Assembly (NCBI GenBank): GCA_030689765.1
Contig: JAUYEP010000127.1
Span: forward strand, 1 to 35,612
Reading direction: 5' to 3'
DNA: 35,612 nucleotides
Origin: Methylovulum sp.
GTDB taxonomy: Bacteria > Pseudomonadota > Gammaproteobacteria > Methylococcales > Methylomonadaceae
Below are positions 2,336-34,806 of this stretch, piece by piece; position 1 is the first letter of the stretch; each line of letters begins with the position of its first letter. The notes beneath the pieces were generated by a model. The model saw only the letters and a program-made list of their open reading frames with translations. It was not told the DNA's origin and did no database searches. The position numbers and the translations under genes were made by a program.

Positions 2336-4036
2336 ATGAAACATAATAAAAAAATTAATAGAAATGGGCTTGCTGTATTAGCCATAGGCATTTTATCCTC
2401 TAGTCCTTTGGTAATGTCAGCAACCTATGACCAATTAAATCTTCAACAAAAACATTTTAATGAAATAGACCAAATTGCGCCATTAAATAATGAGTCTGGA
2501 AGTTCACCGTCAATGTTAGATTCATTACAGCAAGCTGAAGTAAACAATAAAAAATCCAGTTACCGTGAAGTTCTAAATCTTTTAAAACAAAATAAGCTCA
2601 AAAATGCCAGGGATAAAATTTCCGCATTATTAAAAAAGACGCCAGGAGATTCGGAATTTTACAATTTACAAGCCTTATTGGAAACGCTGGAAAAAAACAC
2701 CTTCGCCGCACAACAAAGTTATCAAAAAGCACTACAACTCAACCCCAAAAATATTTTAGCGTATCTAGGAATAGCGAAAATAAATTTAGAAGCCGGAGAG
2801 ATGGATAAAGCTAAAGACTATGCTAATAAGGCATTGGCCATTAATAATAAAATTATTGGCGCTTATCTTCTGTTGGCGGATATCGCTAATAAACAGAAAA
2901 ATAATATTGAGGTGGAATCTGTTTTGTTAACGGCACATGAAAAAGTAAAAGGTGATATTACCTCAGAAATAGAAGTCATTAAAAATTTAGGGAAGTTTTA
3001 TGCGGTACAAAAACAGCCCGAAAAAATCCAATTATTAAGTGAAGATCTGGTCAAACGTTATCCCAATAACAGTCAAGCAATGTCCGTTCTTGCCGGTGTT
3101 CAAATTGTTAATGACAAAAAAGCACTAGCCGAGCAGACGCTACGCCAGATTATTGATCAAGAAAAACATGACACTAATCATCGTTTGTTGCTGGCTAAAT
3201 TACTTAGTGAACAACCGGATAAAGAAAAAGAGGTGCTGAAATTGCTGGATGAGGCATCAAAGATAGAACCCAATAACCCACAGGCGCTTGTTTTTAAAAC
3301 GGCTTATTTAATTAAGCTGCAACGCTATCCTGAAGCATCGGAACTCGCCAATAAAACCGAGACACTGTTTCCCAAGTTAGTGCTGGGTAAGCTTTTAAAA
3401 GGGGATGTCTTCTTGGCTGAAAAGAAATTGGACAAAGCCCTTGAAAGTTATCAACAAGCTTACAAAACACAGCCGAATGACAAAGTATTATTTACTATCG
3501 TCGATATAATGAATGCACAGAAAAAGTCGCCTGAAGCCATAAAGTTTCTTGATAAGGCATTAGAAAAAAATCCTAAGAATGGGGCTATCCATTTTAAACT
3601 GGCAGTAGTTTACCAACAACTGAATGACAACCCAAAAGCCGAAAACCATTACCAAGCAATACTGGCTGGACAACCTGATAATGTATTGGCACTTAATAAT
3701 TTAGCATGGCTTTATGTGCAACGGAATAATCCACAAGCTATAGAATTAGCAAAGAAAGCTTACGCTAAATCTCCTGAATCAGCGGCAATTGCAGATACTT
3801 ATGGTTACATCTTGGTTAAACAAGGGCAGGCTGTAGAAGGTTTAACCGTACTTGAAAAAGCGGCTAGTTTAGCGCCAGCAGCAAATGATATTCAGTTTCA
3901 TTTGGCTGAGGCTTACGCGGCTAATAATAACCGGAGCAAAGCTGTTGAAATACTCGAAACCCTTGCTAAAGCTGGACAAGACTTCTCAGAAAAAAAAGCC
4001 GCGCTTAACTTGTTAGATACATTGAAACCCAATTAA
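2336..4036 (+). CDS. TPR-repeat exported protein, PrsT-like (PEP-CTERM/XrtA-associated TPR protein)
   Basis: Signal peptide-like N-terminus (GLAVLAIGILSSSPLVMSA), many TPR repeats, and a PrsT-style C-terminus (NNLAWLYVQRNNPQAIELAKKAYAKSPESAAIADTYGYILVKQGQAVEGLTVLEKAASLAP). Confidence 0.75.
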   Translation: MKHNKKINRNGLAVLAIGILSSSPLVMSATYDQLNLQQKHFNEIDQIAPLNNESGSSPSMLDSLQQAEVNNKKSSYREVLNLLKQNKLKNARDKISALLKKTPGDSEFYNLQALLETLEKNTFAAQQSYQKALQLNPKNILAYLGIAKINLEAGEMDKAKDYANKALAINNKIIGAYLLLADIANKQKNNIEVESVLLTAHEKVKGDITSEIEVIKNLGKFYAVQKQPEKIQLLSEDLVKRYPNNSQAMSVLAGVQIVNDKKALAEQTLRQIIDQEKHDTNHRLLLAKLLSEQPDKEKEVLKLLDEASKIEPNNPQALVFKTAYLIKLQRYPEASELANKTETLFPKLVLGKLLKGDVFLAEKKLDKALESYQQAYKTQPNDKVLFTIVDIMNAQKKSPEAIKFLDKALEKNPKNGAIHFKLAVVYQQLNDNPKAENHYQAILAGQPDNVLALNNLAWLYVQRNNPQAIELAKKAYAKSPESAAIADTYGYILVKQGQAVEGLTVLEKAASLAPAANDIQFHLAEAYAANNNRSKAVEILETLAKAGQDFSEKKAALNLLDTLKPN

Positions 4037-4637: not shown

Positions 4638-5459
4638 TCACAGCCATTGCTTAACCTTATCACAACTTGCTTTAATCAAATCAGATGCTTCACAAGTCTC
4701 TTGACTAGACCAGAAAGCATCATCAACCACTTTTATCAGCGAAGCATTAATGTTTCGTTCTTGCAGAATAACAAGCAATTGCGTATTGCCAATGACACCC
4801 GGATTATCCTCGCCAGGCGCCACTTCAAAGATCGCTACTTCGTTAACGGTTTGCCAATCCAATCGATCAGCGTGTAAAGCCATTAACGGCTTAATCAAAT
4901 CCGAATTCAGCAAATAACCGGCGACCTCGATGGCCCGGCCTTCGAGCAATTGCTGCTTAATATCAGATACTTTTTCGCGTGATGCATGTTTATTCATCAT
5001 TGCCGCCGTTACACGCAAACGTAAAAATTGCGTGATAAAAACATCTCCATTTAAAACAGGCTGCCATGCAATCAGGTGTTGAATCCGATGCCGTTTTCGG
5101 CTAGAAAAATCCATCGCCAGCAATGCACCAATTCTTAAGCCCCATAAATCAACCGATTGCGCACCTTGCTGTTTTAACCAATCAATTCCGGCATCGATAT
5201 TTTGCAGCCAAATTTCCCATGTCGCTTCGCCGAAATCGCCTGTACTGTCGCCGGTCCCGAATAAATCCAGAACCAAAACAGCATAGCCTAGATCAGAAAA
5301 CGCCTGTGCTTGTAATGCCACCATACGCCGCGATTTGTTCATTTCTTCTGCGAAAGCGGGAATATGAATGATAGCTTTGTCAAAATAGGGTTTACCCACA
5401 GGTGGCCAATAAATGGCGAATAACTTTCCTACACTGCTTTCAATAAATAAGGGCTGCAT
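4638..5459 (-). CDS. Exosortase A system-associated hydrolase 2 (TIGR03101-like alpha/beta hydrolase)
   Basis: MQPLFIESSVGKLFAIYWPPVGKPYFDKAIIHIPAFAEEMNKSRRMVALQAQAFSDLGYAVLVLDLFGTGDSTGDFGEATWEIWLQNIDAGIDWL; start moved to the internal ATG at 5459. Confidence 0.8.
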   Translation of the reverse strand: MQPLFIESSVGKLFAIYWPPVGKPYFDKAIIHIPAFAEEMNKSRRMVALQAQAFSDLGYAVLVLDLFGTGDSTGDFGEATWEIWLQNIDAGIDWLKQQGAQSVDLWGLRIGALLAMDFSSRKRHRIQHLIAWQPVLNGDVFITQFLRLRVTAAMMNKHASREKVSDIKQQLLEGRAIEVAGYLLNSDLIKPLMALHADRLDWQTVNEVAIFEVAPGEDNPGVIGNTQLLVILQERNINASLIKVVDDAFWSSQETCEASDLIKASCDKVKQWL

Positions 5460-5716
5460 GGTCCATCGATAATCAAACAGGAACGGCTGATTTAACCGGC
5501 ATTTTATTGCAATGCCCACCAATATTGTTGCACATCTTCATTAGCCTCCCGATCATAGGTTTTCGTGATCGGCAAACGTAAAACAATCGCGGCATAAATA
5601 TCCCGTCGCCTAAATAGAAATGTTCAGGCTGCTAATGATGGCTACACCGACTGTAGGGCTAACGCACTAACAAGGACACCTATAATATGTACATAAGTAG
5701 ATTACTGACAGTCATG

Positions 5717-7284: not shown

Positions 7285-10200
7285 ATGTCCGTTCTAGCTT
7301 TTAATCCTGTTAGGATAATCCCTATGCTACCGAGACTTGGCTCAATCCCTTTGTTTTATTTTATAGCCAGTCAGCTGATTAATTTTCCCATTTTCACAGC
7401 ACCACTTATCGGCGTAGTTGTCCTATATGCCATTGGATTAAGCTACTGGTCAAAACTCTGGTTAATCATACTTCCCACTTTACTTCCCATATTAGACTTC
7501 ACGCCTTGGTCTGGCCGCATACTTGTCACCGAGTTTGACCTTGTTATACTCACCAGCATTGCTGTTTCATTATTATTTAACCGCTTGGATTTTAGCTTTA
7601 TAAAACAGCTAGGGCACGTCAAATGGCTTATTCTATTTCTAACACTTAGCTTTAGCATGAGTACATTCATTGGCTACTCGGTCAAACTCCTCCCGCCTTT
7701 ACCTTTTTATGCTTATCTCGCTGAATATAACAGCATACGTGTCGCCAAAGGTTTTTTTTCAGCACTCTGTTTTTTACCTATTTTAGCCTATGAAAAAAAT
7801 CAAGGCGCACCCACCGCCAAGCTTCTTAGTTTAGGCATTATATCTGGCTTGATCTTAACCATATTATCCATAATATGGGAGCGAACGGTACTTCCTGGTT
7901 TTTTTGACTTCTCCTATACCTACCGCATTTCGGGCATGTTTTCAGGCTTGTTGCTCGGTGGGGAAATGCTGGACGGTTACCTGTTCCTGGCTTTTCCATT
8001 TTTTATTGTTTTATTTTATAGCTTCAACAACCCCTGGTTGCGGTTTTTGGGGCTACTTATTTTTATTGGCGGACTTTACGGCATTCTAGTCACCTTTACG
8101 CGCACCAATTATCTGGCTGTATTTGTCGTGATTGCCATTTTAATGCTAGGAAGCATAAAAACGCCGCAAATAATAACCAAACACAAAATACGCTCATCTA
8201 TTGTTTTTGTCACACTTGCTTTACTCATAACCATCAGTATTTTCAGGGGTGGATATATCGGCCAACGATTCTCAACATTACAAGATAGTTTTGACCAACG
8301 TCTAACACACTGGGAAAACACACTAAATATCAGTAAAGAAGGGATCATTCCCTTTATTTTCGGAAATGGCAAAGGCAGTTATCCAAATCATTATTTTAGC
8401 TATGATATTACAGGCCTTACCATGGCGCGTTTTTGGTTAATGGATGAAAAACTGGCGGATAAACGCACCCACTTCCTTCGCTTTAGCCCCAGCGATAAAC
8501 AAGGCACCTTAAATGTTATCCAACGATTCCCTGCAAACCAAACCGGTAACTATAAAGTAAAAATCACCCTCCGTACCCCCTCTGAAAAACCTCAAAAACT
8601 ACTGGTCGAATTTTGCAACAAAAATATTTTGCGCTTCCAGGATGAATGTCAATGGCTTGGTTTCAGCACACAAAAAAACACAACCAATCAATGGCAAACA
8701 ATCACACATGGTTTGCCATCTGACAATTTCACCAAACAACTCTTTAGCTCCATCACTCCAGTAGATATCAACCTGCTAAACCGCGGACTAAGTGAAACTT
8801 TGGATATCGGTCAGGTAGAAATTTTTGCCCCGGATGGAAAACAACTCATAAAGAACACCACATTCAACAATGGCTTTGACCATTGGTTTTTTTCCAGCGG
8901 CAATCACTTGGCATGGCATGTTAAAAACTTATGGATCTCTGCATTTTTTGAAGGCGGACTCATCGAACTAAGCCTGATTACACTCTTACTAATTTACTTA
9001 ATGAAACATCTTTTCAAACAGGCACTACAAGGCAACCATTACGCGCTTGCCATGCTGGCCGCGATAACCGGCATAATGATTGTCGGTATATTCGGGAGCA
9101 TTTTTGATGATCCCCGTATTAGCTGGTTATTTTATCTAATGGTCTGGCTAGCTATTCTAAAACCAGAAATGCCACCTATCCTACAAGCAAAAAAAACAAC
9201 GCTAGTACGATCATTGATACCTTTTATCGTATTCTTAATGATGGCATCAGGCATTACCGTCTATGTAATTAATAAATTCGGTTATAGTGCCGATGAAGCA
9301 GCTACCCTATTCATAGAAAAAACGGAGGCAAAACTCGGTCTTGCCTATGCCCAAACCTACCAGGCAAAACTGGACTTTCCTAGCCTTTATCAATGGCGGG
9401 GACAGGGGGCGAACCCGCTTTACAATCCAGTCATCAGCCGCTATACCTTAACTGGAAAACCTTTTACCATTTCGGATAGTGCTGAAAAAACAAAATTCAC
9501 CCGCCTCATTCAGGTAAACAACAGCCAACAATTCTTGCAAGCTATTGCCAATGCTGAACCCGGTGACGGCATTGAACTACAATCAGGTATCTATTCAGTT
9601 AGCCACAATATTGGCATCAGCAAAAACGGTACAACCGAAAAACCAATTATTATCTATGCCCGACAATTAGGCGATGTACTCGTCGAACTCGACACCGTAG
9701 AAGGTTTTAAAGTCAATGCCGCCCATTGGACTTTTCAAAACCTGATCATCAAAGGTGATTGCGCAACACATACAGAATGTGAGCATGCTTTCCACATTGT
9801 TGGCAATGCAGATGGCAGTATTTTGCGCAACAATATCATTTACGATTTTAACTCGGCAATAAAAGGCAATGGCCTACCACAACTAGACGGCACCATTATT
9901 TATCCGGATAACGTGTTGATTGAAAAAAACTCATTTACGAATACTTCGCCACGCAATACAGGCTCACCGGTAAATACCATTGATGTCGTAGGAGGTGATA
10001 ACTGGCGTATAAAAGCAAATTTTATTAGCGATTTTATTAAACTACACGGCAATAAAACTTCCCATGCGGCTTATTTAAAAGGTTACGGAAAAAACGGCTT
10101 GTTCGAAGAAAATCTGGTCATTTGTAATAAAAACCTCTACCAACCCGGTCACTCGCAAGTTGGCCTTTCTTTTGGCGGCGGCGGGACAGGCAGCCAGTTT

Positions 10201-11703
10201 TGTTTTGATAAAAAATGCCAATACGAACACGAGCTAGGCATCATGCAAAATAATATCATTATGAACTGTAACGATGTCGGCATTTACATCAACAAAGGCA
10301 AAGACACCCAGATTATCAATAACACCCTATATAATACTGCCGGTATTGATATCCGCTTTCCAGAATCCAATGCCACAGCCAGCAATAATCTGCTCACAAG
10401 ATCAATCAGACAACGAAATCAGGCAAGGCTTATCGGAACCAATAATCGCCAGGGAGTTGACAAACAACAATTTACCCGCTGGTATACCGATCCAGATAAA
10501 GCTGATTTTTCACTGCGGCAAACCACATCCGAACCATTACCTATAGCTAAGAATCAGACCCACAGTGATTATTGCGCCCTGCAATTAAACAACCTAGAAC
10601 GGAAGATAGGCGCGATTGACTCCGATAGCCAAGCATCATGCAACAACCTGTTAAATAATACATTACCCCCGCTCACCATTCAGTTTAATGAAGAAATCCA
10701 TCAACTTGTCAAACAACAGGAAAAATCCTTACAGCGTTATAAAGAAGAGCAAAAGCTTAAAACTTCGGTCACGGTGTGTCATGCAGGCTGTGAATATCAG
10801 GATTTAAGCAAAGCCCTCAGAGCCGTAAAAACGCATGGCACCATCTACCTGGAACCCGGAAAATATGAAACCTGTGGCATCATCAACCGTAGCGTACATA
10901 TTATTGGAAACCGCCAACAAGAAAATGGCGTACATTTAACCCAAACAGCTTGCGACGGCAAAGCGGCATTAATTGTCAATGCCCCCGATGTCACGCTGGA
11001 GGATCTTGAAATCTCCAGGGTGAGCGTTAATGATAAAAATGGAGCCTGCTTAAGGCTTGAAGCCAATGCCCGCAACTTGACCATCAACAGACTCAATTGC
11101 CATGATAATCAAGCTGGTATCATAGCCAATATCAATGAAGGGAAGCTGACGATAAAGCACTCAGTTTTTGAACGTAATGGGTTTAATCACGGTAAAGCCA
11201 GTAATATCAGCATCACTTCCAATGATGCAGTTGAAATCATAAACAGCAAAATTCTATCCACTACAGGCAAAGGACACGCCATACAACTTAATGCCCCGCA
11301 CATGCTAATTGACCATACAGAAATCGCTGGCTTAAACGGACAAAGTTCCCGTGCCATAGACAACACCATTGGCGGCGAATTGATTATCAGCAACAGCTGG
11401 CTTGAACAAGGCCCCAACACCGATAATGATGAACTAATAGGCTTCGCTCTAGGTGAAGAAAAAGCTTTGCTGGATAAGCAAATCGTAATCCTGGAAAACA
11501 ATCACATCATTTTTGACAAAAAGCTTAATATAGCGGCCAGTTTTCTAAACTCAAGAAAACTATTTAACACCACGGATAGCACCGAGACATTCTTAAAAGA
11601 TAATACCATCATCGGCATGGACAGCTATGGCGCAAGCCATATAACCTCAAGCGGTAACAAAATTTTTGCTGACCGGGAAGCTGCCGGGCTACCGCCGTAC
11701 TAA
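7285..11703 (+). CDS. Wzy/O-antigen-ligase-like polytopic membrane protein fused to C-terminal right-handed parallel beta-helix domains
   Basis: N-terminal ~300 aa multi-TM with an O-antigen ligase-like region; soluble loop ~aa 363-550; more TMs to ~aa 660; then two beta-helix-like regions (LIIKGDCATHTECEHAFHIVGNADGSILRNNIIYDF...; LVNAPDVTLEDLEISRVSVN... NLTINRLNCHDNQAGIIANINEGKLTIKHSVFERNG). Confidence 0.8.
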   Translation: MSVLAFNPVRIIPMLPRLGSIPLFYFIASQLINFPIFTAPLIGVVVLYAIGLSYWSKLWLIILPTLLPILDFTPWSGRILVTEFDLVILTSIAVSLLFNRLDFSFIKQLGHVKWLILFLTLSFSMSTFIGYSVKLLPPLPFYAYLAEYNSIRVAKGFFSALCFLPILAYEKNQGAPTAKLLSLGIISGLILTILSIIWERTVLPGFFDFSYTYRISGMFSGLLLGGEMLDGYLFLAFPFFIVLFYSFNNPWLRFLGLLIFIGGLYGILVTFTRTNYLAVFVVIAILMLGSIKTPQIITKHKIRSSIVFVTLALLITISIFRGGYIGQRFSTLQDSFDQRLTHWENTLNISKEGIIPFIFGNGKGSYPNHYFSYDITGLTMARFWLMDEKLADKRTHFLRFSPSDKQGTLNVIQRFPANQTGNYKVKITLRTPSEKPQKLLVEFCNKNILRFQDECQWLGFSTQKNTTNQWQTITHGLPSDNFTKQLFSSITPVDINLLNRGLSETLDIGQVEIFAPDGKQLIKNTTFNNGFDHWFFSSGNHLAWHVKNLWISAFFEGGLIELSLITLLLIYLMKHLFKQALQGNHYALAMLAAITGIMIVGIFGSIFDDPRISWLFYLMVWLAILKPEMPPILQAKKTTLVRSLIPFIVFLMMASGITVYVINKFGYSADEAATLFIEKTEAKLGLAYAQTYQAKLDFPSLYQWRGQGANPLYNPVISRYTLTGKPFTISDSAEKTKFTRLIQVNNSQQFLQAIANAEPGDGIELQSGIYSVSHNIGISKNGTTEKPIIIYARQLGDVLVELDTVEGFKVNAAHWTFQNLIIKGDCATHTECEHAFHIVGNADGSILRNNIIYDFNSAIKGNGLPQLDGTIIYPDNVLIEKNSFTNTSPRNTGSPVNTIDVVGGDNWRIKANFISDFIKLHGNKTSHAAYLKGYGKNGLFEENLVICNKNLYQPGHSQVGLSFGGGGTGSQFCFDKKCQYEHELGIMQNNIIMNCNDVGIYINKGKDTQIINNTLYNTAGIDIRFPESNATASNNLLTRSIRQRNQARLIGTNNRQGVDKQQFTRWYTDPDKADFSLRQTTSEPLPIAKNQTHSDYCALQLNNLERKIGAIDSDSQASCNNLLNNTLPPLTIQFNEEIHQLVKQQEKSLQRYKEEQKLKTSVTVCHAGCEYQDLSKALRAVKTHGTIYLEPGKYETCGIINRSVHIIGNRQQENGVHLTQTACDGKAALIVNAPDVTLEDLEISRVSVNDKNGACLRLEANARNLTINRLNCHDNQAGIIANINEGKLTIKHSVFERNGFNHGKASNISITSNDAVEIINSKILSTTGKGHAIQLNAPHMLIDHTEIAGLNGQSSRAIDNTIGGELIISNSWLEQGPNTDNDELIGFALGEEKALLDKQIVILENNHIIFDKKLNIAASFLNSRKLFNTTDSTETFLKDNTIIGMDSYGASHITSSGNKIFADREAAGLPPY

Positions 11704-12543: not shown

Positions 12544-14274
12544 ATGTCATTACAGCCAGAAAACGACTCAATACTTGTTCTTGACGGTGAAGAATTCTCA
12601 ACGCTGTCTATTGTCCGCTCATTAGGCAGAAAGGGGCTGACGATTACCGTTGCCGCAACTGATGACAAAGCCATCTGCCGCTACTCAAAATATACGCAAC
12701 ACTTCTTTACCTACCCTGACCCGCTTACCGCTACGGAAGGGTTTACCCAAACGATCATCAAAAAATTAACCGAGCAAAATTACACCCTGCTTATCCCTGT
12801 TACTGAACTGACAACACTACCGTTAGCAAAAATACGCCAACAAATCGAACAGCGAACCCTATTGGCCCTGGCCGATAACCAGGCACTGGACATAGTCACA
12901 AACAAAGCCAAAACCTTTGCGCTGGCAGAAAAACATGGCATCCCCATACCCAAAAGCTATCACATTGATGATCTGCAAGCCCTTGAAAACTGCATAACCG
13001 AGATCAACTATCCGGTAGTGATCAAACCCTCACGCTCCATAGCCGACCAGAAAAACGACATACGCGCCAAACTTAAAGTTGACTATGCTTTTAACGCAGA
13101 AGAATTACAGCAAAAAACACACAACCTACTTAAATACACGGAAATAATCTTACAAGAATACTTTGCCGGCACTGGCACTGGCATAGAGCTGATCGCCGAT
13201 CGTGGCACCATCATTCATGCCTTTCAACACCAGCGTTTGCATGAATTACCCTTAACCGGCGGTGGCAGTTGCCTACGCCAAAGCGTTGCCGTTCATCCGC
13301 AGCTATTAAACTATGCACAAGCCCTGATCAAAGCGCTCAACTGGCATGGCGTCGCCATGGTTGAATTTAAGCACAATGCAGAAAACAATCAAAGCTGCCT
13401 AATGGAAATTAACGGCCGCTTTTGGGGATCGTTGCCGCTCGCCGTCGCTGCCGGTTCTGATTTTCCTTGGTTTCTATATCAGATGCTAATCCATCAACAG
13501 TATCCGCAACAATTTAATTCAGAACCAGGCCATATTTCCAGAAAAATCAAAGAAGACTTGTATTGGTACATTCAGGTCATATTCCGTCGTGATAACAGCC
13601 CATTAATTAAATGGCCTACAACCACCCAGTTAATAAAAGATTTCTGCTCAATTTTTAACTACCGGCATCATTTTGACGCTTTTTATTATAAGGATCTAAA
13701 ACCAGGATTTATCGAGCTTGGGCGTACTGGCTTGTGGCTATATTATTTTATTAGTGGCTATATCCGAAAACGTTGGCTGAAAAAAAAACACTTGAAAATT
13801 AAGCAAACCCAAGCCATCGCACAACCACTCAAACTTGCGAAGAACATCCGGTTTCTTTGCTACGGCAATATAAATCGAAGCGCAGTAGCAGAATGCCTTT
13901 ACCATCAGCGAGACAACAAACGGTTTAGCGTCCAATCAGCTGGTTTTCATCCCAAAAACCAACGCCCAGCCGACCCCAATATGGTTAAAATCGCCCAAGA
14001 ATATCACTGCGATATGAGCAACTGGTCATCCCTCTCGCTCACGGAAAACATGCTTAACACAGCAGACTTAATTTTTGTGATGGAAATTGAACATATTGAA
14101 AAACTGACTCAACAGTATCCTAAACAGTCACGCAAAACCTATTTACTCAGTGCGCTTGATGCTGATGAAAAATCACCGCTTGAAATCAGTGACCCATACG
14201 GTAAAACATTGGACGAATACCGCCGCTGTTTTAACCAAATCAAAAACTTCATCAGTCAATTAAATAAACTTTAA
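12544..14274 (+). CDS. ATP-grasp domain protein fused to a C-terminal low-molecular-weight protein tyrosine phosphatase domain
   Basis: N-terminal ATP-grasp (VTNKAKTFALAEKHGIPIPKSYHIDD...YPVVIKPSRS...ILQEYFAGTGTGIELIADRG...VAMVEFKHNAENNQSCLMEINGRFWGSLPLAVAAG); C-terminal LMW-PTP (FLCYGNINRSAVAECLY, CX5R; late DPYGKTLDEYRRCF). Confidence 0.85.
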   Translation: MSLQPENDSILVLDGEEFSTLSIVRSLGRKGLTITVAATDDKAICRYSKYTQHFFTYPDPLTATEGFTQTIIKKLTEQNYTLLIPVTELTTLPLAKIRQQIEQRTLLALADNQALDIVTNKAKTFALAEKHGIPIPKSYHIDDLQALENCITEINYPVVIKPSRSIADQKNDIRAKLKVDYAFNAEELQQKTHNLLKYTEIILQEYFAGTGTGIELIADRGTIIHAFQHQRLHELPLTGGGSCLRQSVAVHPQLLNYAQALIKALNWHGVAMVEFKHNAENNQSCLMEINGRFWGSLPLAVAAGSDFPWFLYQMLIHQQYPQQFNSEPGHISRKIKEDLYWYIQVIFRRDNSPLIKWPTTTQLIKDFCSIFNYRHHFDAFYYKDLKPGFIELGRTGLWLYYFISGYIRKRWLKKKHLKIKQTQAIAQPLKLAKNIRFLCYGNINRSAVAECLYHQRDNKRFSVQSAGFHPKNQRPADPNMVKIAQEYHCDMSNWSSLSLTENMLNTADLIFVMEIEHIEKLTQQYPKQSRKTYLLSALDADEKSPLEISDPYGKTLDEYRRCFNQIKNFISQLNKL

Positions 14275-19831: not shown

Positions 19832-21292
19832 TTATATACGTGAAACATAAGCCTTTAAATTGCCATATATAAAGCGCTCCCCCCCTTCTCGCATTCCAGT
19901 TATCCACCATAGCGCCAGCAACAAAATGGAATAGGTAAAAATACCGGTTGTAATTTTAATTATTAAAGCAACCATCATATCTTTTGGAAGAAATTGGGCG
20001 ACATAGCAAACAACTGCCCCCATAATTAGCGTAACAGCAAGCGGGCGAATTATTACCATAAAAACACGTAGTAGTGATAACTTATTGAACTTTTTAATGT
20101 AAATTAAAAAAAAAGGCATAACGCAGAGGGCTAAAAAGGCCCTGCCAAACACAACATAAATAGCATTGTAGTTAAGCGACAAATAGATTAAAACTGGAAT
20201 TAAACAAATAACCATTCCCCAATCCATTAATGACAATAACTTAATTTTTCCTACAACCGTTAAATAATTGCTTAGTACATAAGTGTACAGTTGGGTCATA
20301 ACTAATATCAGTGCAGATTGAAAAAGTGGAATAATGCTTAACCATTTTTCACCCAACATTAACGGAATGAATTCCTCGGCTATCACCATCAGTCCCATAA
20401 ACATAGGCAATGCAATAACCGAGACAAGCCCGACAACTGTAATAAAGGCATTATCCAGTTTATCTGGTTCGTTTAATAGCTTCGCGTAGCCTGCATAGAC
20501 AGGTGCCAAAGCCGGATAAATGACTTCCGATGCAGGCAAATCTGCCAGCTCTAAGGACATTGTATAACGTCCCATCATTTCAACCCCCAGGAACTTACCA
20601 ACTACAATCTGATCGGTTTTCATCCGTGCATAACCCGAAAAATTCTTAATTAAATACCATTTAGAAAAGGCCCATTGCTGACGGAATCCGGATACGGTTA
20701 GTTTGGGGATATACCTAGAAACGACGTAGCTAAACAACACACTAACGATGGTTGTTGCCAAAGTCCCATACACCATAGCCCAATAATTCTTTAACAAATA
20801 AGCAAAATAAACGGTTACGATAAAACCAGAAATTTTAACAATGACGCCATGAAGAAAGATCCGCCCGTATTCAAGCTTCTTTTGTAATGCAATCAAGCCA
20901 ATATTTAGGAAGCCACTTATCGCGACATTTGCCGCTAATACCTTAAAGACATCCGTTAATAACTGATTATTAAAAAAACCAGCAAAGTATTCAGCGAAAA
21001 AAAATAAGATTAGACCAAGAAAAATATAAATGAATAACTTTAAAGTCCATGCCGTATCATAATCTTTTCTTACAATATCACTTTTCCGGATTAAATACGG
21101 AGCAATACCTGTTTCAGTGATAGTCTGCAATAATGACACAACTAACGAAGCCATAGCGACAATACCATAATCACTGGGCAGCAATAATCGAGCTAATATG
21201 ATGGTGCTAACTATACCCAACAGTTTGATGACCCATTGCATGCCGACCATCCAGATTGACCCTGCTAGTACTTGTTTACTTATTCCTGACAA
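19832..21292 (-). CDS. Wzx-type oligosaccharide flippase
   Basis: 486-aa polytopic protein; MSGISKQVLAGSIWMVGMQWVIKLLGIVSTIILARLLLPSDYGIVAMASLVVSLLQTITETGIAPYLIRK is a classic polysaccharide transport N-terminus. Confidence 0.88.
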   Translation of the reverse strand: MSGISKQVLAGSIWMVGMQWVIKLLGIVSTIILARLLLPSDYGIVAMASLVVSLLQTITETGIAPYLIRKSDIVRKDYDTAWTLKLFIYIFLGLILFFFAEYFAGFFNNQLLTDVFKVLAANVAISGFLNIGLIALQKKLEYGRIFLHGVIVKISGFIVTVYFAYLLKNYWAMVYGTLATTIVSVLFSYVVSRYIPKLTVSGFRQQWAFSKWYLIKNFSGYARMKTDQIVVGKFLGVEMMGRYTMSLELADLPASEVIYPALAPVYAGYAKLLNEPDKLDNAFITVVGLVSVIALPMFMGLMVIAEEFIPLMLGEKWLSIIPLFQSALILVMTQLYTYVLSNYLTVVGKIKLLSLMDWGMVICLIPVLIYLSLNYNAIYVVFGRAFLALCVMPFFLIYIKKFNKLSLLRVFMVIIRPLAVTLIMGAVVCYVAQFLPKDMMVALIIKITTGIFTYSILLLALWWITGMREGGERFIYGNLKAYVSRI

Positions 21293-25562: not shown

Positions 25563-26861
25563 TTACCTCCTCGGTTGTATAATTTTTTCAGACACAATGC
25601 GGTTATCTAACACAAAGATAATCGCCAATACAGCATAAAAAAAATCAAAATAGGCAATAGCAACCGTCCCTCCGGAAATACAATAGACGGTGATCGATAA
25701 CCGTAGCATAGTTAATAGGTTAAAAACCCAGTCCTCCATGCCATTTGTTTTAGCCCGTTGTTCTATTTGCCCTATTTTTATATAAGCACTGGCTATGATT
25801 AATAAAAATAGGCCTAACCCCACAAAACCCTGATCACTGAGCACTTGAAAGTAAATACTATGGGATGCCCGTACTGATTCATTAAAGTCCGCATCAGGGG
25901 TGGGTATAAAATCAAGAATATAAAAGTCACCGACATATTTTTGCCAAATGGGCAGGTTTTCGACAGCCTTAAAGCCACCTCCAAAGTAAGGGTTATTTAG
26001 CGCAATGAGGACGCACATCTTCCAGACCATAACTCGATGCATAAATGAAGAGTCCCCCTCCGCACTTTCAACCGTATTCATTCGGGAAAACCATTCTTCT
26101 GGTAATATCTCAGCGGATAAACTGATAACTATAGCAAATATTGTTATCCACAATACTTTCCTTTTGCTGCTTTTAATAAAAAAAATGCCTAAAACAGCCA
26201 ACCCAACAAATCCAGATCGAGAATAGGTACTAATCAACCCCAAAACCATCAATATAACAACCCATACTAAACCTTGCTTGATGAATTTATGTGTTGTTTG
26301 CGTCACTAAATAAAATGACAGCGGCAATAAGGTTAAAATCATTACCGCAAAAAAATTATTATCTCCAGTTATTCCTATTAAATAACCAAACCTATGGCTT
26401 CCACCTGATGCAATAAACTTTAACCCCTCACTAGCCGCTAATGCACCAATAGACAATACTAATATCCAGATTATAAAGTCAACATGTAATTTTCGCTCCA
26501 GGATGGCAATCGAAAAAAAATAAAACAGGATAATTTTCATAAAAAAGTTCCATCTTTCCCACACTGTATCAGCATCAGCATCAGATAATAATGAAGACAG
26601 TGTTGTCCAAATGAAAAATATTAAAATAAGTATGGATATTTTATCCCATTTAAATTTCGGCTTATTTTTGCTGGCGAAATAAGCCAGCATGGTGATAATT
26701 GCAAAAAATCGATTATAGGTTATCGACGAAGCGAAACTATACACCAGCGCATTGATCTGAAAGGCCGATGTCCATAACCACAAGCCAATGCCAATAAACG
26801 GTCTTTTGAAGGCAAAAAACATCAATAGCGGTAAAACAGCCAGTAATGTTAAGTCACGCAT
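25563..26861 (-). CDS. Putative O-glycosylation ligase, exosortase A system-associated (TIGR03097-like; Wzy/WaaL superfamily)
   Basis: MRDLTLLAVLPLLMFFAFKRPFIGIGLWLWTSAFQINALVYSFASSITYNRFFAIITML...HRFGYLIGITGDNNFFAVMILTLLPLSFYL; recognisable family signature. Confidence 0.85.
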   Translation of the reverse strand: MRDLTLLAVLPLLMFFAFKRPFIGIGLWLWTSAFQINALVYSFASSITYNRFFAIITMLAYFASKNKPKFKWDKISILILIFFIWTTLSSLLSDADADTVWERWNFFMKIILFYFFSIAILERKLHVDFIIWILVLSIGALAASEGLKFIASGGSHRFGYLIGITGDNNFFAVMILTLLPLSFYLVTQTTHKFIKQGLVWVVILMVLGLISTYSRSGFVGLAVLGIFFIKSSKRKVLWITIFAIVISLSAEILPEEWFSRMNTVESAEGDSSFMHRVMVWKMCVLIALNNPYFGGGFKAVENLPIWQKYVGDFYILDFIPTPDADFNESVRASHSIYFQVLSDQGFVGLGLFLLIIASAYIKIGQIEQRAKTNGMEDWVFNLLTMLRLSITVYCISGGTVAIAYFDFFYAVLAIIFVLDNRIVSEKIIQPRR

Positions 26862-28198: not shown

Positions 28199-29347
28199 TT
28201 AATTGTTTTTTGGCATCGCTGAACCGTTCTGCTCTGATATTTTAGTGCGATCTTCGTATTGATAAAGATTAAGGTAATTTCTAGCCATTGCCTGCAGACT
28301 AAATGCTTGTTCAACCTTGCTTCTGGCAGCGGCACCATGCTGTTGGCGTAATTGGGCGTTATCCAGATAGTTTGCAATACCATCAGCCAAGGCCTGTTCA
28401 TTTCGCACCGGCACCAATTGCCCATTGATCCCTGAATCTATTATTTCAGGATTTCCCCCTACCTTCGTCGCAATCACCGGCAAGCCACTCGCCATTGCTT
28501 CCAGCAAGGTTAACGCTATGCCTTCGGCTAACGACGGCAACACAAACACATCAAAATCTTTTAGAATATCTGCGACATCTGTTCTGGCGCCCAATAAATG
28601 TACACAATCCTGCAATTGATGCTCATGCACATAAGTTTGCAATTGTGGTAGCAACTCACCATCTCCGACAATCAACAACTGTAACTTTAGCCTAAGCTGT
28701 GGATTACGCACTAGCAATTGCTCGACTGCTTTAACCAGACATAGCTGATTTTTAACCGCCACAGTACGCCCTACTGTGCCTACAGTAAAAACGGCATGGT
28801 TTCTTTCAATGGGTTGGTAATGTGTTAAATCGATGCCATTGTAAATGCGGTTGACTTTAGACGCGGGTATTTTTACGGTATTGACCAGCCATTGGGCTAA
28901 TTCTTCGGAAACAGGCACCCAATAATGGATAGCAGGGTTAACCAGACGGCGTAAAATTTGATATTTTTTATTGGAGCCATCAAGGTCATAGATATCACGA
29001 CCGTGTTCTGCATGAATCCGTAAAGGGACACCTGATAAAAATGCTACCAATTGATATTCCAAGGTTGCAAGATTATAACTATGGACTATTTGTGGGCGAT
29101 ACTGCCTGAATAATTGCCATAATCGGTAATGTATTTTAGGGTCATTGCCGGGCTGCTTGTGCAATTCAATAACTTCAACATTATCTGCTTTTATTGACGC
29201 TACCATTTGCGGATTTGAATCTGTTAAAGCTACAATTACATGCCTGAACTTATCAGTCGGGAGTGTATTGATTAAATTAACCAGAACCGTTTCTAATCCG
29301 CCTATATCAAAGCGATATACTAAATGTAAAACTATGGCAGGTGGCAT
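28199..29347 (-). CDS. Glycosyltransferase family 4, TIGR03088-like (PEP-CTERM/XrtA system-associated)
   Basis: VLHLVYRFDIGGLETVLVNLINTLPTDKFRHVIVALTDSN...IHAEHGRDIYDLDGSNKKYQILRRLVNPAIHYWVPVSEELAQWL...VFVLPSLAEGIALTLLEAMASGLPVIATKVGGNPEII. Confidence 0.85.
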   Translation of the reverse strand: MPPAIVLHLVYRFDIGGLETVLVNLINTLPTDKFRHVIVALTDSNPQMVASIKADNVEVIELHKQPGNDPKIHYRLWQLFRQYRPQIVHSYNLATLEYQLVAFLSGVPLRIHAEHGRDIYDLDGSNKKYQILRRLVNPAIHYWVPVSEELAQWLVNTVKIPASKVNRIYNGIDLTHYQPIERNHAVFTVGTVGRTVAVKNQLCLVKAVEQLLVRNPQLRLKLQLLIVGDGELLPQLQTYVHEHQLQDCVHLLGARTDVADILKDFDVFVLPSLAEGIALTLLEAMASGLPVIATKVGGNPEIIDSGINGQLVPVRNEQALADGIANYLDNAQLRQQHGAAARSKVEQAFSLQAMARNYLNLYQYEDRTKISEQNGSAMPKNN

Positions 29348-32263: not shown

Positions 32264-32563
32264 TTAGCCCATATTTACTGCAACTAAATATGAAGTCAAA
32301 ACCGCCAAATCTTCATTGGTAAATTGACGGAACGATGGGTGAATTTTAAGTAAGCCAAGTTCGCCCATAGTCTTTTTGTCTGGAGGCGATCCATAGAAGG
32401 TCTCTTTGAAACCTATAACTTCAACCATTTGTTTATTGGGATCGAGAAAACAGGATTCCATTTTCAATAGATTACTGAAGGATAAACACGCTCTATCTAC
32501 TTTAAACTTTCTCAGATAATTCAATTTGAGCCCGCTGATAATCTTCCGGAACACCAATATCAA
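32264..32563 (-). CDS. Hypothetical small protein overlapping the hddC 3' end (uncertain; may start at the internal Met, ~65 aa)
   Basis: ORF only; ...MESCFLDPNKQMVEVIGFKETFYGSPPDKKTMGELGLLKIHPSFRQFTNEDLAVLTSYLVAVNMG; no family recognised. Confidence 0.3.
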   Translation of the reverse strand: MILVFRKIISGLKLNYLRKFKVDRACLSFSNLLKMESCFLDPNKQMVEVIGFKETFYGSPPDKKTMGELGLLKIHPSFRQFTNEDLAVLTSYLVAVNMG

Positions 32564-33197
32564 TAAAATAAGCTTCCGTTATAAATGCACAAACCAACAC
32601 TTCATTTAATTTACATTGCAAAAAATCAGTTTCAAACGAAAACACCTCAGGCATTAAAAAAGGATTAAACAGCGATTTTTTTAAAATATAAACACCTGTA
32701 TTAATCTGTCCCGAAATAACACATCTTTTTTCTTCAAATGAAACCACCCGATCATTAAGAACCTTAACATTGCCATAACGCTCAAAACTCTGCATGGGTT
32801 TTAACGCAATGCTTAAGTCCGCGTGTTTAGCCGTATGAAAATCAAACATCAACTTCCAATCCACCGCACAAAATGTATCGCCATTTAAAACCAATACATG
32901 CTCGGATTGTATCCCGGACATTGCCAATGCGATTGCCCCTCCGGTACCCAATGGACTTTTCTCATAGGTGTACAGCAACTCTAACCCACGCCATTGACGC
33001 CCAAAATACGCTTCAATCTGCTCCCCTAAATAACCAACAGAAAGCACAACACGATTAAAACCATGTCCTTGCAACCGCCTCAATAAATACTCTAGAAAGG
33101 GTTGTCCCGCCACTGGCACCATAGGCTTAGGCACAGTTAGCGTTAAAGGATACAATCGAGTCCCTAAGCCCCCTGCTAAAATAATAGCCTCTTTCAC
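32502..33197 (-). CDS. hddC: Sugar-phosphate nucleotidyltransferase, D-glycero-alpha-D-manno-heptose 1-phosphate guanylyltransferase-like
   Basis: MKEAIILAGGLGTRLYPLTLTVPKPMVPVAGQPFLEYLLRRLQGHGFNRVVLSVGYLGEQIEAYFG...VLNGDTFCAVD; next to gmhA and hddA. Confidence 0.8.
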   Translation of the reverse strand: MKEAIILAGGLGTRLYPLTLTVPKPMVPVAGQPFLEYLLRRLQGHGFNRVVLSVGYLGEQIEAYFGRQWRGLELLYTYEKSPLGTGGAIALAMSGIQSEHVLVLNGDTFCAVDWKLMFDFHTAKHADLSIALKPMQSFERYGNVKVLNDRVVSFEEKRCVISGQINTGVYILKKSLFNPFLMPEVFSFETDFLQCKLNEVLVCAFITEAYFIDIGVPEDYQRAQIELSEKV

Positions 33198-33790
33198 TAC
33201 CTGTTCCCAAATAATCTTTCTTCAATTGCAGTACAAATAATGTGGCCCATCAAAATATGACATTCTTGGATTCGAGGGGTAACGGCAGAAGGTACCTTTA
33301 AGCAATAATCACAAAATTCATTCATTTTGCCCATTCTGTTTCCAGTTAACCCTACCGTCACTATCCCCATCTCCCGTGCTTTTTTGAGCGCGGCAATAAT
33401 ATTTGCTGAATTTCCTGAGGTAGAAATCCCAATAAAAACATCATCAGGTTTACCATTGGCCTCAACTTGCCGGCTAAACATAAACTCAACTGAGCTATCA
33501 TTCACTATTGCTGTCAATATAGACGTATCAGTCGTTAAAGCAACTGACGCGAGCGCAGGCCGATCAAAAGCCAGTTTATTCACCAACTCTGCGGCAATAT
33601 GCTGGGCATCAGCCGCACTGCCGCCATTACCAGCCAGCATTGTTTTTCCACCTTTTTGATAAGCCTGAACAATAACGCCAGTAACCTCATCAATTAATTC
33701 AAGCAATGATTGGTCAGCGAGCATCAACTGCTTCGTTTCAATGGACTGTTGCATTTCATCTGCTACAAACTGCACACCTAAATCTGCCAT
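33197..33790 (-). CDS. gmhA: D-sedoheptulose-7-phosphate isomerase (phosphoheptose isomerase, SIS domain)
   Basis: [52 protein letters not shown]...[32 protein letters not shown]. Confidence 0.88.
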
Positions 33791-34806
33791 GACTGAACTC
33801 CTTGCTTCTCAAAATGGAAACGGACTACCTTACCTGGATAAGTATCCAACCTATTTACTAAATCTAATTTTTTTACCGGATCAACTATAAACATAATAAA
33901 GCCACCACCGCCAGCACCAGACACCTTACCTGCCAAAGCCCCCACAGCCTTGGCATCAGACATTAAAGCATCTATTTCAGGATTTGTAATATTAGCCGCC
34001 AACTTACGTTTTGCCTCCCACGAACGGCCTAAGATATTGGCAAACCAGGGCATATCGCCTTTTAACAATGCTTCTTTCATCTCATATGCATCCCGCTTAA
34101 TTTGATGTGAAGCCACCAACGAATCAGAACCCACTATTTTAAACTGCTCAATCTGTTGTTCAATAATGCTCGCCGAGGATCGCGAAACGCCGGTATAGTA
34201 AAGCACCATGGAGCTATTTAACTCATTGATAATCCAATTCTTAACACGCAGAGGGTTGACAATCACATGATCGCCGGCATTAAACTCCATAAAATTAAAA
34301 CCACCAAAAGTCGCTGCATACTGGTCTTGCCGTCCACCTGACAAACCAATTTCTTTACGCTCAATCTCATAGGCCAGGTGTGCAATCTCATACTCACCTA
34401 ATGGCAAATTCAACCACTCCACAAAGGCCGTCAAAATTGCCACCATCATCGTAGACGATGAGCCCAATCCCGAGCCCGCTAACGCATCAGAATAAGTCGT
34501 TATGCGACAAGGTAATGGCTTGCCGTGATTAAATTCCCGTACAATGCGGTTATAAGCACCTTTATGTAAATCTAAAAAACCATCATAACAAAGTTGGCTT
34601 AAGGCTTCATTCTCAAATGTTTCACCTCGGTCTGCAGCAATAAAAATCACTTTGTTTTCAGTCAATGGCTCTATGGTGCAATAGGCATACATTCCAATCG
34701 TAGCATTTAAAACTGCGCCGCCATAATCATCACAATAAGGCGAAACATCGGTGCCTCCTCCCGCCAAACCTAATCTTAATGGGGCCCGAGATCTAATAAT
34801 TTTCAT
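33778..34806 (-). CDS. hddA: D-glycero-alpha-D-manno-heptose 7-phosphate kinase (GHMP kinase)
   Basis: [48 protein letters not shown]...[27 protein letters not shown]...[20 protein letters not shown] kinase motifs. Confidence 0.88.

Follow-up and report, generated by a model that had tools for sequence, protein, structure and literature searches.

A probable Wzy-type polymerase joined to a PL6-related tandem beta-helix in an XrtA exopolysaccharide locus of Methylovulum sp.

It has long been asked what measures, releases and clears the chains made by Wzy-type polymerases, and the usual answer is separate proteins (Wzz/Wzc, AlgL, WceF). Could a polymerase bring its own processing domain? This question is raised by one gene in a 35,612-nucleotide (nt) stretch of Methylovulum sp. 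DNA (Methylomonadaceae; assembly GCA_030689765.1, contig JAUYEP010000127.1, positions 1 to 35,612), hereafter the window. The gene encodes a single protein in which a multi-transmembrane (TM) core of the Wzy/O-antigen-ligase family precedes two right-handed beta-helices, termed bh1 and bh2, that are related to polysaccharide lyase family 6 (PL6). We propose, with nearly an even chance of being right, that this protein is a Wzy-type polymerase of an XrtA (exosortase/PEP-CTERM) exopolysaccharide (EPS) locus and that its attached PL6-related tandem beta-helix acts on the polymerase's own chain. The architecture is all but certain, unlike the mechanism.

The fusion gene is an open frame of 1472 stop-free codons (Table 1), as the original prediction, made from the sequence alone, had read it. 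Along this frame, the AlphaFold model starts with a membrane part made of helices, followed by an all-beta domain inserted at amino acids (aa) 398-523; further helices including aa 644-665 come next, then a first beta-helix at aa 740-1080, a helical linker and a second beta-helix. The predicted local distance difference test (pLDDT) score averages 89.5 across aa 664-1472, where both C-terminal regions are right-handed beta-helices, and exceeds 93 in most blocks of the first. Structure prediction, suggested from the outset as a check, thus returned both beta-helices, initially placed at nt 9505-10640 and 10762-11703 and delimited slightly differently here (Table 1). The same full-length architecture is found in two other methanotroph metagenome-assembled genomes (MAGs), with identities of 60% (L086, genome G002) and 50% (L088, genome G280). 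Searches with the fusion protein as a single sequence gave no matches in the PDB, viral contigs or genome contigs, and alignments were required. An assembly or sequencing join of two genes, which the original prediction had named among its refuters and for which an assembly in 412 contigs might speak, is excluded by the full-length relatives, which come from separate MAGs and genera, and by third-position changes that outnumber second-position changes in each domain and across both linkers; we put its chance at next to nothing.

What are the two beta-helices? bh1 passes the 24-bit cut-off of PF14592 (Chondroitinase B, PL6) both alone (25.8 bits) and in the genome search (31.7 bits), with a match limited to the N-terminal ~115 of 426 positions, and 42 of 55 bh1 family members match the same family. 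In a profile search of the PDB, 14 of 15 matches of bh1 are PL6 enzymes (best 7o7t, E=1.8e-14) and the exception, 1ru4, is a pectate lyase. The eight top Foldseek matches are all PL6, as are 18 of the top 19, the other being the Vibrio polysaccharide lyase RbmB; the best E is 5e-9, and root-mean-square deviations are high with this multi-domain query. At the sequence level, the asparagine ladder of PL6 recurs in the bh1 alignment (N943, N990 and N1013 in 55/55 sequences, N1035 and N1054 in 54/55), with a spacing of 19-23 sequence positions from N990 onward. bh2 aligns with the C-terminal domain of canonical two-domain PL6 in hhalign (probability 96.2, E=2.4e-9). With bh1 related to PL6 and bh2 similar to the C-terminal helix of PL6, the whole tail has the look of a remote tandem PL6 lyase. 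When the model of bh1 and bh2 is compared with two-domain PL6 lyases such as AlyGC, the alignment spans ~880-900 columns and takes in almost all of both beta-helices, but the rigid superposition is poor (17-18 Å), so the relative orientation of the beta-helices either differs from that of two-domain PL6 or is poorly modelled. No epimerase was found among the sequence matches or the top 50 fold matches of bh1 and bh2, and an assignment of bh2 to NosD (TIGR04247) was rejected at 38.8-49.9 bits against a cut-off of 300. The lyase-like look ascribed to these regions by the first reading was borne out, in that PL6 lyases are their nearest known relatives by sequence and fold.

A census of 237 genomes of the host's family located the polymerase in 58 and a C-terminal module in only four of them (the host, G002, G280 and G066), in agreement with the earlier view that the architecture is unusual. 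The 1836-aa protein of the Methyloprofundus MAG G280 (L050:5494-11004; L088:7958-13468) carries bh1 followed by bh2 twice. In G066 (L037:117-4394), the same polymerase carries a heparinase II (PL21-like) homologue instead of the beta-helices (E=2.8e-22). Outside the family, a Neptunomonas MAG encodes the polymerase with bh1 in a gene that ends at the contig end, and G434 (L077:6395-9658) encodes the same polymerase with a 427-aa C-terminal tail that had no match in library or PDB searches; a reading of this tail by eye as a ConA-type jelly-roll was supported by no search. bh1 and bh2 are also fused on contig L087, which starts inside the gene. In a quick-method polymerase tree, a single clade (SH-aLRT 100, a single label change) holds all six polymerases with a C-terminal extension, and its sister clade consists of proteins with an N-terminal VanZ-like domain (VanZ-Wzy, described below). 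In the bh1 tree, built by the same quick method, the Neptunomonas bh1 pairs as sister with a gene of Motiliproteus that stands alone (support 100; 62% identity), and the bh1 domains of the methanotroph fusions group apart from it (support 97). Therefore, bh1 was joined to the polymerase at least twice independently. The suggestion of the original prediction that one protein might both polymerise and edit a chain gains support because lyase-type modules unrelated to one another are attached at one common position within a single polymerase clade. We tentatively view the polymerases of this clade as scaffolds whose periplasmic processing module is interchangeable, with lyase-type domains of unrelated folds fitted at one C-terminal site, so that synthesis and cutting of a chain may be coupled in a single polypeptide as in a self-trimming or self-releasing Wzy.

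The joined parts also occur separately. In G601, the TGA stop codon of the polymerase gene overlaps the ATG of bh1 (TGATG), a split form of the fusion. bh1 and bh2 are back-to-back genes in six Colwellia loci and stand in reverse order in one Alteromonadaceae locus, and a bh2 gene lies 35 bp after a VanZ-Wzy gene in G024 and adjacent to and divergent from one in G050 and G115. The junction alignment identifies the extra TM helix and W-x-G-x-G-A linker of the fusion as the counterpart of the N-terminal anchor of stand-alone bh1, and the stand-alone bh1 protein of G625 matches fusion aa 644-1123. Taken with the split forms, this correspondence indicates that the fusion can arise by simple end-to-end joining. 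An exosortase above the cut-off is encoded in 11 of 18 genomes with stand-alone bh1 (12/20 with G625 and G664) and in none of the four Myxococcota checked. Further arrangements include a 1038-aa protein with bh1 and another pectate-lyase-type beta-helix (PF12708; L071:6904-10020, G522), a 617-aa protein that has a Chondroitinase-B-like N-terminal part and bh2 without the polymerase (L033:202-2055, G045), and a bh1 gene of Thiorhodococcus drewsii (L162:9692-12704) interrupted by a 1.4-kb stretch with a 468-aa open reading frame, possibly an inserted element.

What does the membrane half contribute? The O-antigen-ligase-like module seen at first reading matches Wzy_C (PF04932) at nt 8059-8400 in the whole-genome search, with 33.3 bits against a cut-off of 31.7; Wzy_C is unlisted in the whole-protein hmmscan of the fusion protein, and 34 of 37 relatives match it (E<=0.01). 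Across 46 relatives, the core conserves R273, R328, R339 and H342-W343 and, directly after the first TM module, a G360/G362/G364-P367 motif. The core profile search reached no solved Wzy or WaaL structure, and only the carbohydrate-binding module (CBM) was matched. The fusion protein has no match to TIGR03097, the profile of the XrtA-associated ligase, which the neighbouring gene product does match (Table 1). From the locus content, we infer that the fusion protein is the locus polymerase, because Wzy_C is otherwise matched in the ~92% complete genome by a single protein, the XrtA-associated ligase at nt 25563-26861, and a Wzx-type flippase is encoded in the locus. The large loop, first read as a jelly-roll of carbohydrate-binding character at nt 8374-8935, proved to be so: its profile (aa 378-548) matches the CBM structure 4mgq (E=4e-7), the model of aa 398-523 is all-beta, and the loops of two relatives match CBM_4_9. 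The loop sequence of the fusion protein alone has no Pfam CBM match. Two loop cysteines, C444 and C455, are invariant in the 46 relatives, and matches of the loop profile to CFTR were judged to be due to chance. Judged by hydropathy and by a K/R-rich stretch that precedes aa 644, the C-terminal half would lie on the periplasmic side, the same as the loop, with the C-terminus reaching the periplasm via the extra TM helix.

These parts suggest a working order. Lipid-linked repeat units would be flipped to the periplasm by Wzx and joined by the membrane core at its periplasmic face, where the CBM-like loop may hold the growing chain. The extra TM helix would set bh1 and bh2 on the periplasmic side of the core, and bh1, which conserves the basic residues K860, K932, K1004 and R1024, could then act on the nascent acidic chain. 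Its action would be cutting, probably by beta-elimination, and might determine how long the chain becomes, free it or remove chains whose export fails; for bh2, binding or stabilisation is the more likely role. Homology is our basis for the polymerising core, the acidic nature of the substrate, and both the cutting and the end that it serves. AlgL clears periplasmic alginate during synthesis (PMC8829089) and a wceF mutation leads to longer stewartan (PMC7949094), so that lyase-type and other EPS-processing enzymes do serve during synthesis.

Are the catalytic residues of PL6 present in bh1? In BcelPL6, these residues are K249/R270, with H271 (PMC6879350). HMMER aligns the dyad to K1004/R1024 in a weak stretch, and MAFFT places the dyad Lys on K1004 and the Ca-binding Glu on D997 in 10/10 runs, with the dyad Arg at F1025, which adjoins R1024, or against a gap. 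R1024 is found in 54/55 and D997 in 55/55 bh1 sequences. The His that follows the dyad is absent from bh1, the second carboxylate Ca2+ ligand of PL6 is aligned to Gly, and the hhalign comparison of bh1 with PL6 covers only 91 N-terminal columns, short of settling the catalytic register.

Several observations weigh against the proposal that the tail acts on the polymerase's own chain. A count of the coils in the model gives a register displaced by one, with the dyad opposite G964-967/N1003/K1004, and position 1004, the base position, is Lys in 28 and Arg in 25 of the 55 sequences; the PL6 dyad therefore appears to be conserved in bh1 only ambiguously, in an uncertain register. In bh2 of the fusion protein, the near-invariant H1306, K1334 and E1390 are replaced. 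No uronate-making dehydrogenase is encoded in the window, and the one nucleotide-sugar dehydrogenase of the genome lies outside it. This polymerase type is absent from all 20 genomes that have stand-alone bh1, which rules out bh1 as its obligate partner. The AlphaFold model of the TM half is of low confidence, with few sequences in the alignment.

Part of this evidence can be read in other ways. The beta-helices may be non-catalytic and bind the nascent chain as a ruler, a processivity clamp or an export hand-off platform. The polar residues lost from bh2, the insecure conservation of the dyad and the doubling of bh2 in the Methyloprofundus protein, a frequent trait of binding modules, all fit such a role, whereas in bh1 upwards of 20 polar positions hardly vary across 55 diverse sequences (K860, K932, S962, D997, Y1001 and R1024 among them), a more active-site-like pattern, and the heparinase II swap introduces an enzyme family. 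We consider a purely binding role unlikely, although it is the alternative that we take most seriously. The module could instead edit the chain without cutting it, for example by C5-epimerisation or some other change at the level of the polymer. The beta-helix fold is shared by alginate C5-epimerases, of which AlgG has been shown beside PL6 (PMC6879350), and bh1 has no securely assigned PL6 acid/base pair; against this, PL6 lyases come first in both the sequence and the fold rankings, no epimerase is among those matches, and the alternative module is a heparinase II homologue. Editing of this kind seems quite improbable to us.

The membrane half might also be a ligase or glycosyltransferase that acts on protein or lipid, with a tail that trims the chain either before its transfer or afterwards. 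Glycan transfer to proteins may occur in XrtA systems, Wzy_C spans both ligases and polymerases, and the profile reached no solved member of either WaaL or Wzy. However, the locus already encodes the XrtA-associated ligase, which is the only other Wzy_C protein of the genome, and the flippase lies in the same locus, so we give transfer a chance as slim as that of editing, if not a shade slimmer. Cutting of the nascent chain by a polymerase-borne PL6-related module is the reading that we favour.

The window is an XrtA EPS locus (Table 1), and the exosortase gene of the same genome is on another contig. In the genetically tractable methanotroph Methylomonas sp. LW13, EPS is exosortase-dependent (PMC11072679). 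In the window at 12544-14274, one protein combines an ATP-grasp domain with a low-molecular-weight phosphotyrosine phosphatase and is conserved in L038. In L038 (12664-15072), a syntenic Methylomonas MAG contig, a PcRGLX-like (rhamnogalacturonan-lyase-type) gene that is not in the window directly follows the fusion gene. At 32502-34806, the window encodes a nucleotidyltransferase, a 197-aa open reading frame (sharing 77% identity with its equivalent in L038) and a kinase that resembles the heptose kinase HddA (459 bits, below the cut-off of 600). These genes suggest that the exported glycan may contain D-glycero-D-manno-heptose.

Table 1. Domains of the fusion protein and neighbouring features of the XrtA locus in the window.
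Feature	Position (nt)	Strand	Evidence
PrsT-like tetratricopeptide repeat (TPR) protein of XrtA systems	2336..4036	+	TIGR02917 281.5 bits, short of the 312.2 cut-off
Exosortase A system-associated hydrolase 2	4638..5522	-	TIGR03101 258 bits, above cut-off
Whole fusion protein	7285..11703	+	open frame; full-length relatives L086, L088
TM module 1 of Wzy/O-antigen-ligase-family core, aa 14-359	7324..8361	+	Wzy_C match, conservation, model helices
CBM-like jelly-roll, large periplasmic loop, aa 378-548	8416..8928	+	profile vs 4mgq, CBM_4_9 relatives, model
TM module 2 of Wzy core, aa 541-625	8905..9159	+	model helices, hydropathy; overlaps loop-profile end
Extra TM helix, aa 644-665, after K/R-rich stretch	9214..9279	+	hydropathy, junction alignment
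Linker, aa 666-739, W-x-G-x-G-A motif	9280..9501	+	junction alignment
bh1, PL6-related right-handed beta-helix, aa 740-1116	9502..10632	+	PF14592, PDB profile, Foldseek, model
Helical linker between beta-helices, aa 1117-1157	10633..10755	+	model; fast-evolving
bh2, second right-handed beta-helix, aa 1158-1472	10756..11700	+	hhalign to PL6 C-terminal domains, model
Wzx-type flippase, likely polymerase partner	19832..21292	-	PF13440 E=2.4e-66
XrtA-associated O-glycosylation ligase	25563..26861	-	TIGR03097 359 bits, above cut-off
PEP-CTERM/XrtA glycosyltransferase	28199..29347	-	TIGR03088 468 bits, above cut-off

The fusion protein resembles several known systems in part. Like Wzy and WaaL (PF04932), it combines a multi-TM core with the Wzy_C motif region and a sizeable loop in the periplasm; it is set apart by the CBM-like jelly-roll within that loop, one more TM helix and a periplasmic tail of 780 aa. 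VanZ-Wzy proteins have a homologous Wzy core and CBM loop, but they begin with a VanZ-like domain and lack the C-terminal module. Most methanotroph relatives are of this type (L006-L032, e.g. L006:1483-4821, minus strand), joining the VanZ-like N-terminal domain (PF04892) to the Wzy core and CBM loop in ~1100 aa. bh1 and bh2 align with the tandem beta-helices of AlyGC-type PL6 lyases; in contrast to those enzymes, they are tethered to the membrane on a polymerase in a synthesis locus, show low identity and an uncertain dyad, and also exist as separate genes. AlgL is likewise a periplasmic lyase within a synthesis locus (PMC8829089, PMC5099689), but it is a free alpha/alpha toroid that is unlinked to the polymerase and reportedly does not associate with other alginate proteins. 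WceF (PMC7949094) and the Vibrio polysaccharide lyase RbmB (PMC11637428) are beta-helix enzymes that process the EPS of their own organism, whereas both are separate exported proteins and WceF is a hydrolase. The window shares TIGR03097, TIGR03088, TIGR03101 and a PrsT-like protein with the XrtA/PEP-CTERM EPS loci of the founding XrtA paper (PMC1569441), in which a term search found no lyase, epimerase or polymerase-lyase fusion. Term searches likewise found no mention of a polymerase-lyase fusion in a 2025 Wzy review (PMC12004945) or in the BP-Pol survey (PMC10920833), and we found no earlier description of a Wzy-lyase fusion in the open-access literature.

What would such a fusion mean for these bacteria? 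That relatives attached cutting-type modules of different kinds to one and the same polymerase suggests that the cell makes and processes its chain in one machine. A polymerase with its own lyase-type domain makes the coupling of synthesis and processing testable in a single protein. The swapped modules, PL6-like in some organisms and heparinase-like in another, hint at the chain chemistry of each organism, which is probably uronic-acid-bearing. The finding may also help to annotate the unstudied bh1 and bh2 families, to which the searched libraries assign no function, in the XrtA EPS loci of many Gammaproteobacteria.

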